A DNA stretch of 64,000 nucleotides, from contig CALBDO010000027.1 in assembly GCA_937927515.1 (NCBI GenBank), forward strand, positions 1-64,000, in the 5' to 3' direction. The stretch's first letter is position 1. Every line of letters starts with the position of its first letter. Origin of the DNA: Candidatus Kapaibacterium sp. Its GTDB lineage: Bacteria > Bacteroidota > Ignavibacteria > Kapaibacteriales > UBA2268. The position numbers were made by a program, and so were the translations under genes. Positions 28,564 to 29,985 of the stretch are shown here, piece after piece. The notes below the pieces were generated by a model, which saw only the letters and a program-made list of their open reading frames with translations, had not been told where the DNA came from and made no database searches.

Positions 28564-29127
28564 CTATTTTATCGGCTTTAAAATGTATTTTACTTTACCA
28601 ATTAATTGTAAGTCCTTTGAATTTTTAATTTCAACACTTTGGTACCTTGGATTTGCCGAGACCAGACGATAACCACTCTCCGTTTTTTCTACTTTTTTTA
28701 CGAAGTACATACCTTCGTAGCGAACGACATAAATCGAACCATCTTCGAAGTCGTCTTTAGCGGCCAAGACAATGTCTCCATTGCAAATACCAGCTCCGAC
28801 CATCGAGTCTCCCGAAACTGTAAAGGATTTCATACCATCAGTCGAGATTACATCAGGTTTTGTGTTGGAGATAATATCAGTGACCTCGAGCTTGGTTATG
28901 TCGATGTTCCTCAATTGCAGTGGTGATGCTTGACCGGTCGAGTAGAGCGTAGTTAATAAGTCGAACTTATAGAATGCATTGTCGAGTACTTCGTCGGGGT
29001 CGATACCCATAGCCTCGAGCATCAAGAGGGTTTTATTGAAATTTGGAGGGAGACTGCCACGAAGATGAGCTTTGAGAAGTTCTCTTTCAAACTGTTTTAT
29101 GATTTTCTTCCGTTCGCTTTCAGTCAT
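28564..29127 (-). CDS. S24/LexA-type peptidase protein lacking a DNA-binding domain
   Basis: 187 residues. The C-terminal half is a LexA/S24 catalytic domain: 'SFTVSGDSMVGAGICNGDIVLAA' gives Ser108 and 'YFVKKVEK' gives the lysine at 144/145, with 'LVSANPRY' before the last strands. The N-terminal 90 residues are helical and charged and have no helix-turn-helix. No Ala-Gly or Cys-Gly dipeptide is found upstream of Ser108, where LexA/CI proteins are cut. Its first 8 nt overlap the 3' end of the XRE gene, so the two products are made together and probably act as the two halves of a phage-type repressor. It may sense a signal or cleave a partner. Unusual. Confidence 0.85.
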   Translation of the reverse strand: MTESERKKIIKQFERELLKAHLRGSLPPNFNKTLLMLEAMGIDPDEVLDNAFYKFDLLTTLYSTGQASPLQLRNIDITKLEVTDIISNTKPDVISTDGMKSFTVSGDSMVGAGICNGDIVLAAKDDFEDGSIYVVRYEGMYFVKKVEKTESGYRLVSANPRYQSVEIKNSKDLQLIGKVKYILKPIK

Positions 29128-29596
29128 TTATGTTCCTTTTTTTAATGATTTCAATGATATCGCCAGCAACAGCTGTGTATTTTCGTGCAAGTTCGATTAG
29201 TTCATCAAAGTTACGCTCGGAATATTCAATCCGAGTCGACTCCAAATTGCTGGATAAAATTTTATCCTCGATTTCATTCGAGTCGAAAGTATTGTTCTGC
29301 AAATTCTTTGCTTCGATGTATTTTTCGAGTTTATCTTTTAGTTCGCGTCCAGCTTGGTTTGGTGCAAAGAAACTACCTTCTCCAGTTAAAATAAAAATTG
29401 GATTAATTCCGCGTCGATACAAAGTAACAAGTAACGATGGCGGTAGTTGTGCTCGACCCAACTCGTAGTTCAAGATTTTGTGCATTGTTTCTCCTAAGAG
29501 ACGAGCAAATTGAGTAGCCGAGAGCTTTCCGCCTTCGTTAAATATCGACCTTATAAATCTTAGACGCTCGCCAATTTCTTTGTTCAAATTTTGCAT
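29120..29596 (-). CDS. XRE-family helix-turn-helix regulator (DNA-binding half of a split repressor)
   Basis: 158 residues. Residues about 8-70 are an XRE/CI-like domain: 'IGERLRFIRSIFNEGGKLSATQFARLLG' then 'MHKILNYELGRAQLPPSLL' and 'NPIFILTGEGSFF', the usual end of such domains in phage repressors. The C-terminal 85 residues form charged helices suited to dimerisation. In typical CI-like repressors an S24 peptidase domain follows in the same chain. Here it is a separate gene overlapping by 8 nt. A perfect 12-bp inverted repeat 36 nt upstream of its start (29632-29660) is the probable operator. Regulation is likely autogenous. Confidence 0.87.
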   Translation of the reverse strand: MQNLNKEIGERLRFIRSIFNEGGKLSATQFARLLGETMHKILNYELGRAQLPPSLLVTLYRRGINPIFILTGEGSFFAPNQAGRELKDKLEKYIEAKNLQNNTFDSNEIEDKILSSNLESTRIEYSERNFDELIELARKYTAVAGDIIEIIKKRNIND

Positions 29597-29619
29597 TTTG
29601 TTTTTTTGTAAAATTTACT

Positions 29620-29627
29620 TAATTTTG
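29620..29627 (+). promoter_or_regulatory. Promoter of the Mor-like gene (TAATTTTG with TTTG 19 nt upstream)
   Basis: TAATTTTG at 29620-29627 has a TTTG at 29597-29600, 19 nt upstream, the best full match to the Bacteroidota -33/-7 pattern in the window. The palindromic operator begins 5 nt downstream and so covers the transcript start. Confidence 0.65.
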
Positions 29628-29631
29628 ATGT

Positions 29632-29660
29632 AAGAAATACATAAAAGATATGTATTTCTT
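29632..29660. promoter_or_regulatory. Palindromic operator between XRE and Mor-like genes
   Basis: AAGAAATACATA (29632-29643) is repeated exactly, inverted, at 29649-29660 with a 5-nt spacer. It lies between the divergent genes. On the plus strand it covers the start point of the Mor-like promoter. On the minus strand it includes a TAnnTTTT box that could serve the XRE gene. A dimeric helix-turn-helix protein is the natural ligand, and the XRE protein encoded next to it is the obvious candidate. Confidence 0.75.
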
Positions 29661-29706
29661 GCAAAAACAAAAATAAAAAAAATTAAACAAAAAAGCAAAT
29701 GAAAAT

Positions 29707-29985
29707 ATGGAAAAAGAGATGGATGTTTTCACAAAGGTAGAAATAAACGACCTTACAGACGACTTGAAGCTAATTGCCAATGCTTGTGGAATCGATACAG
29801 TACGGATGCTGCTTCGTTATTGTGCTGGGATGTCCATCTACATTCCAAAGATAGCACGCTTGGAGAGATTTATACTTCGCTACATCAAGGAAAATTCAGA
29901 GAAATCGTTTAAACAAATTGCAAGAGAGCTTGGTGTAACCGAGCAATTTGTAAAAAAATTATTTCGCCAAATGAAAAAACAATAA
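29707..29985 (+). CDS. Mor/C-like transcription activator
   Basis: 92 residues. 'DDLKLIANACGIDTVRMLLRYCAGMSIYIPKIARL' matches the Mor dimerisation region (family pattern: helix, G-x-x-x-hydrophobic, then 'YIPK'). 'KSFKQIARELGVTEQFVKKLFRQ' is the C-terminal helix-turn-helix. In phage Mu, Mor activates the middle promoter. Here no phage genes are near. The gene is divergent from the XRE/S24 pair across a shared palindromic operator, so it looks like the output gene of a phage-derived switch. Targets are unknown. No Shine-Dalgarno is visible, which is common in this phylum. Confidence 0.8.
   Translation: MEKEMDVFTKVEINDLTDDLKLIANACGIDTVRMLLRYCAGMSIYIPKIARLERFILRYIKENSEKSFKQIARELGVTEQFVKKLFRQMKKQ

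Follow-up and report, generated by a model that had tools for sequence, protein, structure and literature searches.

A putative two-chain CI/LexA-type switch, with a candidate cut site on an XRE repressor and a separate S24 protease, in the family of Candidatus Kapaibacterium

Separate genes for an XRE DNA-binding protein and an S24 protease, lying back to back with a gene for a Mor-like activator, probably form a split CI/LexA-type switch that acts as a chromosomal regulator in the family of Candidatus Kapaibacterium, in which the S24 protein would cut the tail of the XRE in trans and thereby free Mor (we give this reading a probability of about 0.6). Repressors such as lambda CI and LexA combine a helix-turn-helix (HTH) domain with an S24 Ser-Lys protease and an Ala-Gly bond, and act at operators between divergent promoters. 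The HTH, the S24 dyad, the Ala-Gly and the divergent promoters with operators, tripartite as in lambda OR, are all found here, but they are spread over two chains: the HTH protein carries the putative cut site, the protease lacks one, and the two genes are sometimes unlinked. With odds slightly better than even, this would be a two-chain S24 switch with its cut site on the repressor and a self-resistant trans protease, in a family that mostly lacks LexA, and the same division would have arisen in neighbouring UmuD-like pairs.

In the mechanism that we propose, the XRE would bind up to three operators placed 22 bp apart between the divergent promoters, silencing the Mor promoter and probably also the operon that encodes it. 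The S24 protein would supply in trans the role of the C-terminal domain of CI and LexA: it would dock the XRE tail in its active-site groove, might hold adjacent XRE dimers together and, once triggered (perhaps by RecA filaments), would cut at Ala144-Gly145. This would leave AVA or VAA at the new C-terminus of the XRE. LexA has a similar end after cleavage, which acts as a ClpXP degron. The cut XRE would then be destroyed; Mor would be made and would activate an unlinked regulon. The order and separation of the genes, the placement of the motif, the overlap of operators with promoters and the conservation of these features are established by sequence comparison. The original prediction, of a switch in which the S24 protein releases the XRE and turns on Mor, fits this anatomy, and we revise it in that the cut motif lies on the XRE, the operators are three, and the unit is nearly family-wide rather than confined to one genome.

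The window is the whole stretch of DNA that we analysed, the first 64 kb (64,000 nt) of contig G000:C27. Among named relatives, the closest that we found are Candidatus Kapaibacterium sp. Ch6 (CP058732.1) and a MAG of Ignavibacteria (JAOAEE010000045.1). The ORF coordinates (Table 1) bear out the initial description of separate XRE and S24 genes overlapping by 8 nt, with a divergent Mor-like gene. The palindrome reported between them is indeed a perfect 11-bp inverted repeat, with no second copy in the genome even when 3 mismatches are allowed, but it is not a single site, being made of parts of operators 2 and 3. Both predicted promoters follow what we take to be the Bacteroidota consensus. 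The module is flanked by a gene for the hydrogenase-maturation protein HydF on one side and, on the other, by a gene weakly matching CARDB and vWA; neither is a phage gene.

Table 1. Features of the XRE/S24/Mor locus in the window.
Feature	Position	Strand	Remarks
S24 partner ORF	28564-29127	-	187 aa; S24 protease domain preceded by an N-terminal part of unknown fold; PF00717, E 3.4e-18
S24 catalytic Lys144 codon	28696-28698	-	sequence and alignment
S24 catalytic Ser108 codon	28804-28806	-	sequence and alignment
XRE/S24 ORF overlap	29120-29127		8 nt
XRE DNA-binding protein ORF	29120-29596	-	158 aa; gene separate from S24
XRE-tail Ala144-Gly145 codons, putative S24 trans cut site	29162-29167	-	
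Mor-ward promoter, TTG-N19-TAATTTTG	29598-29627	+	Bacteroidota-type; predicted
Operator 1, TGTAAAATTTACT	29607-29619		1 mismatch to TGTA-N5-TACA; within Mor promoter spacer
Operator 2, TGTAAGAAATACA	29629-29641		exact TGTA-N5-TACA
Palindrome	29632-29660		parts of operators 2 and 3
Operator 3, TGTATTTCTTGCA	29651-29663		1 mismatch; lies immediately downstream of the -7 element in the XRE-S24 promoter
XRE-S24-ward promoter, TTG-N20-TATTTTTG	29668-29698	-	Bacteroidota-type; predicted from the window sequence alone
Mor-like activator ORF	29707-29985	+	92 aa; PF08765, PHROG_836 and 1rr7 matches

The XRE/S24/Mor unit, whose recurrence in related genomes had been proposed as a check, was found nearly family-wide and without shared phage flanks. 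A Mor-like match is present in 51 of 54 genomes of the same taxonomic family, and a single-sequence search found the XRE in 31 of 36. We read 48 XRE genes, the window's included, from 24 of the 27 genera (the XRE of G071 lies outside this set, and the L102, L106, L113, L114, L116 and L117 stretches have no XRE). None of the 48 is fused to an S24 domain, including one, L078, that runs off its contig; the in-frame fusion that might have betrayed an error was sought in these relatives and is absent from them. A split caused by a sequencing error or frameshift is ruled out because the genes are separate at every readable locus. The S24 gene is adjacent to that of the XRE in 37 of the 48 cases. It is on another contig in nine: in seven of these the XRE has different neighbours, and in two it stands at a contig end (L078 and L091). 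For the last two XREs (L111 and L112) no partner was found. In 35 of 36 fetched adjacent pairs the ORFs are separated by -59 to +60 nt, and in the remaining pair by 231 nt. The tandem order Mor-XRE-S24 is seen in one genus (L107-L110). The XRE was not found in G006, G030, G016, G032 and G060; G016 and G032 still have a Mor-like match, and in G006 and G030, which belong to one genus, XRE, Mor and partner S24 are all missing together. With a cut-off of E 1e-8, a search of 395 genomes from the phylum gave strong XRE matches (E 1e-44 or better) in 8 family genomes and weak ones in 6 non-family genomes. Among five of these weak non-family loci, one encodes a fused repressor that has an A-G of its own, and a separate S24 within 1.5 kb is seen at none. 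Of the weaker matches read from the single-sequence XRE search, one (L207) is a fused S24 repressor.

Taken alone, the XRE has weak profile matches (HTH_19 at E 0.0032, under the cut-off, and PHROG_8 at E 4.4e-5); in the alignment it is a member of a well-conserved family of its own. An Ala-Gly pair lies close to the end of the linker or beyond it in 45 of the 48 XREs, i.e., in a table of 47 plus L078, which was read separately since its frame exceeds 300 aa. In the alignment, which took in 33 of the 48 sequences, Ala144 never varies and the conservation of Gly145 is 90% or more. Over the 47 XREs each reaches 96%, against at most 55% for the other residues from 85 to 158, with the exception of residue 143 (77%). 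The pair occurs within the last 45 residues of 44 of the 47 XREs, compared with a mean of 11.4 and a maximum of 20 in shuffled tails. LexA is cleaved at VAA/G (the slash marking the cut), and the XRE motif resembles this site: of the 44 XREs, 35 have A at P2, 41 have V or A at P3, and 40 have I, L or M at P3'. The bond that S24 repressors cut in themselves appears to sit here on the other chain, the XRE, which suggests trans proteolysis. A caveat is that cutting in trans would remove merely the 4-26 residues that follow the bond in these 44 XREs. In Streptococcus mutans, a ClpXP C-degron is embedded in IrvR, and after cleavage the N-terminal domain of IrvR remains a repressor when that degron is mutated or removed (PMC7101444); a similar arrangement would explain how the removal of a short XRE tail could matter. 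At L078 (positions 1-921), the A-G of the XRE is followed by basic RGRP-type repeats that run off the contig end, with no S24.

The S24 partner keeps the protease dyad and lacks a cut site of its own. Its PF00717 match begins at profile position 33 of 116, and the family profile matches UmuD' and LexA structures, the former being its best solved relatives. Ser108 and Lys144 are invariant in the 32 partners (of 46) that were aligned, and the dyad is recognised by pattern in 42 of the 46; of the four scored as lacking it, L088 is so scored merely because it is short. An A/C-G pair 30-45 residues before the Ser occurs in 0 of the 42 partners with the dyad. In a mixed control group of 42 further S24 proteins encoded by the family genomes, it is genuine in 16 (18 were scored, of which L201 and L204 are slicing artefacts), and 24 lack it, some of these being the Ser-bearing halves of UmuD-like pairs. 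In the same scoring, 14 controls came out as without Ser-Lys. In LexA, the A-G lies 35 residues before the Ser. In 17 of the 46 partners, the position 35-36 residues ahead of the Ser is occupied by GAA and then K, R, A or N, as if a cis site had been retained but spoiled at P1'. Of the traits of S24 repressors of the LexA/CI kind, the Ser-Lys dyad is present, whereas a single chain joining DNA-binding and S24 domains and a cis cut site are absent. Single-chain structure models, built from 3-row alignments, were poor (mean pLDDT of 49.3 for the S24 and 54.5 for the XRE).

The same genomes also contain UmuD-like pairs of S24 genes, each pair within one short locus (L177, L185, L187, L236-L239, L241, L248 and L260, of which L241 is the same place as L206). 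In 10 of these 10 pairs, chosen because one member lacks the Ser and including four from one genus, one protein has Ser-Lys without A-G and the other has V(S/A/P)AG without the catalytic Ser. Judged by their motifs, they are a second division of substrate and protease in the family.

We surveyed operators in 46 intergenic regions, those of the window and of 45 loci (L115, which has no Mor, and L107, whose Mor was missed by ORF picking, fall outside the survey). Exact TGTA-N5-TACA occurs 40 times, compared with a mean of 0.28 and a maximum of 1 in dinucleotide shuffles; at up to 1 mismatch there are 80 sites (mean 9.6 and maximum 18 when shuffled), with at least one in 43 of the 46 regions. The three operators of the window are spaced by 22 bp, and pairs at this distance (up to 2 mismatches) number 46, versus 1.0 in shuffled sequences, while pairs at 44 bp number 19, versus 0.8. 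A promoter directed toward Mor, TTG-N17-22-TAnnTTTG, is present in 31 of the 46 regions, versus 1.4, and overlaps an operator in 24, versus 0.05, all these counts including several genomes per genus and not being of independent events. By these patterns, the layout is lambda-OR-like and conserved across the family. The 22-bp doublet (up to 2 mismatches) is present at the locus in 5 of 5 congeneric genomes, and elsewhere each of them has 0-4 scattered sites at 2 mismatches (0-1 with the reversed control pattern). Since the doublets are nearly confined to the locus and the recA and umuD-like promoters mostly lack the operator (see below), the array seems to serve essentially its own locus within the genus, as the tripartite operator of lambda OR does.

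The pairing of the two proteins can be followed in genomes where one of them has changed. In seven genomes of two genera the genes are unlinked, and all seven S24 proteins retain the N-terminal part of the partner (HMM E 8e-28 to 4e-19), as expected for trans-acting proteins; those of the L078 and L091 genomes retain it likewise. Neither G031 nor G065 (completeness 92% and 76%) has an S24 matching the partner from its N-terminus: the 4 matches in G031 start at model position 82 or later, and the 5 in G065 at 55 or later, in a model of length 216. Of the three XREs that lack A-G, two belong to these genomes. The correspondence is not complete, as G009 has a full partner and an XRE with AAAK instead of AAAG, three loci of one genus (L101, L103 and L104) retain the A-G beside an adjacent S24 without the catalytic Ser (GDEM, GSEL), and in G007 it is retained beside an S24 reduced to 88 aa and devoid of the N-terminal part. 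These cases imply that the A-G may also serve for docking, besides cutting, or that another protease may act on it. They bear on a doubtful but appreciable alternative, in which the S24 protein does not cut: the XRE tail would dock in its groove, and the S24 would provide dimerisation or cooperativity, or be an anti-repressor that binds the XRE. The 22-bp spacing suits cooperative dimers, and the three genomes with a Ser-less S24 agree with docking. Against a non-cutting partner stand the invariance of Ser and Lys in the 32 aligned proteins of 46 and the fact that the conserved pair, amid a variable tail, is exactly the A-G bond that S24 proteins cut. Other readings are much less probable. The S24 could be a UmuD-like mutagenesis subunit co-transcribed with the XRE by chance, given that UmuD' proteins are its closest solved relatives. 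We find this quite improbable, because the N-terminal part is conserved in the unlinked copies, the next gene in the window is hydF and not umuC, the S24 lacks the UmuD cut site, and loss of the partner accompanies loss of the XRE A-G in two genomes.

It is similarly improbable that the XRE-S24 pair is the family's replacement for LexA and directly represses SOS genes. The LexA winged helix (PF01726) was found in just 5 of the 54 family genomes, with no match in G000, and there are precedents in Bacteroidetes (PMC8565304) and Francisella (PMC13148647), where S24 repressors derived from phages govern DNA-damage genes. Yet the operator (up to 1 mismatch, within 200 nt upstream) occurs in 0 of 30 recA regions across the family and in 1 of 4 within the genus, i.e., in 1 of 34 overall, with one mismatch and at -154. 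In 17 fetched regions, 11 umuD-like genes were recognised, and none of them has it. The doublets are, moreover, nearly locus-specific in the five congeneric genomes. A direct SOS regulon is thus unsupported and direct SOS control already weakened, and DNA damage as the signal is unproven; control may be indirect, via Mor. In G031, a genome without partner S24, LexA DNA-binding and S24 matches share one 253-aa frame (G031:C134:2949-3587). The least credible of these readings is that the locus is a prophage remnant, an immunity region that is all that remains and has no present function. The gene types and the tripartite operator are phage-like. Against this, operators and A-G are conserved over most of the 24 genera, most partner S24 proteins keep the catalytic residues, and among the flanking-gene clusters around 53 loci none is widely shared, the largest, module aside, having 11 members. 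Pattern scans of IMG/VR, which reach mainly close relatives, and tblastn searches of GenBank phages revealed no relatives of XRE or Mor, and the S24 matches 20 phage records across the protease part only. The remnant reading appears already largely refuted by conservation, and a local prophage is unsupported for lack of a shared flank cluster, of XRE or Mor phage relatives, and of S24 phage matches beyond the protease. As for the phage structural genes at related loci that had been named as counter-evidence, no phage cluster is common to the loci as far as tested. The PF04860 portal, the sole phage hallmark searched genome-wide, is absent from G000. It occurs in 3 of the 54 family genomes, and we rejected on this basis the idea that Mor controls an HK97-type gene transfer agent.

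The split CI/LexA-type switch that we favour has partial analogues among characterised systems. ImmR is an XRE-type repressor inactivated by a separately encoded metalloprotease, ImmA. The same holds for DdrO and IrrE (PMC7907104). A separate protease is common to these systems and to ours, but theirs are metalloproteases of the COG2856 type and the partner here is an S24. The non-canonical LexA of Bacteroidetes are CI-like S24 regulators, probably phage-derived, that became fixed in bacterial genomes; each is a single chain with both HTH and S24, and they regulate SOS genes via GGA-N5-TCC or CTAA-N5-TTAG (PMC8565304), in contrast with the two chains, TGTA-N5-TACA and single locus seen here. 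Francisella FddR is a co-opted phage S24 repressor that controls itself and a divergent gene, as proposed here, but it binds DNA itself, and the accessible part of that source mentions no Mor-like target (PMC13148647). IrvR/IrvA of S. mutans is a core-genome LexA-like switch that resembles phage CI/Cro and controls an adjacent regulator gene (PMC7101444); IrvR is one chain and cuts itself, unlike the two chains of our system. In line with the impression at the outset, we found no description of this layout in the open-access literature searched (subscription papers were mostly outside the search).

S24 repressors are textbook self-cleaving proteins. If our reading is correct, the self-cleaving step would be able to work obligatorily in trans, and the pair would offer a ready-made system for the study of substrate docking without self-cleavage. 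It would also be a switch of a new type, present in bacteria most of which are devoid of LexA and seemingly built to release a Mor-like protein whose regulon is directly testable.

The Mor-like ORF scores 23.9 bits with PF08765, for a cut-off of 24.9, and matches PHROG_836 ('late transcriptional activator') at E 2.1e-7; the profile of its family matches the Mu Mor structure 1rr7 at E 7.6e-5. Compared with the Mor/C activators of Mu, it is shorter and is not in a Mu-like phage. A fourth gene lies between XRE and Mor, oriented toward Mor, in 30 of the 47 loci having both. Its products have 67-151 aa, a pI below 6 in 28 of the 30, and a DLxFLxxDYLE-like motif (e.g., L099, L073 and L092). All 30 were recovered by leave-one-out profiles at E 2e-3 or better, with congeners retained in the profiles. 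The gene is absent from the window's genus and 12 other loci. From its position, we would guess that the small protein is an anti-repressor or a modulator of Mor. Finally, two Mor-like paralogues with no XRE on their stretch (L116 and L117) lie upstream of a four-gene cluster that ends in a 1034-aa protein, of efflux-pump size, and the same cluster is found downstream of the L094 locus.
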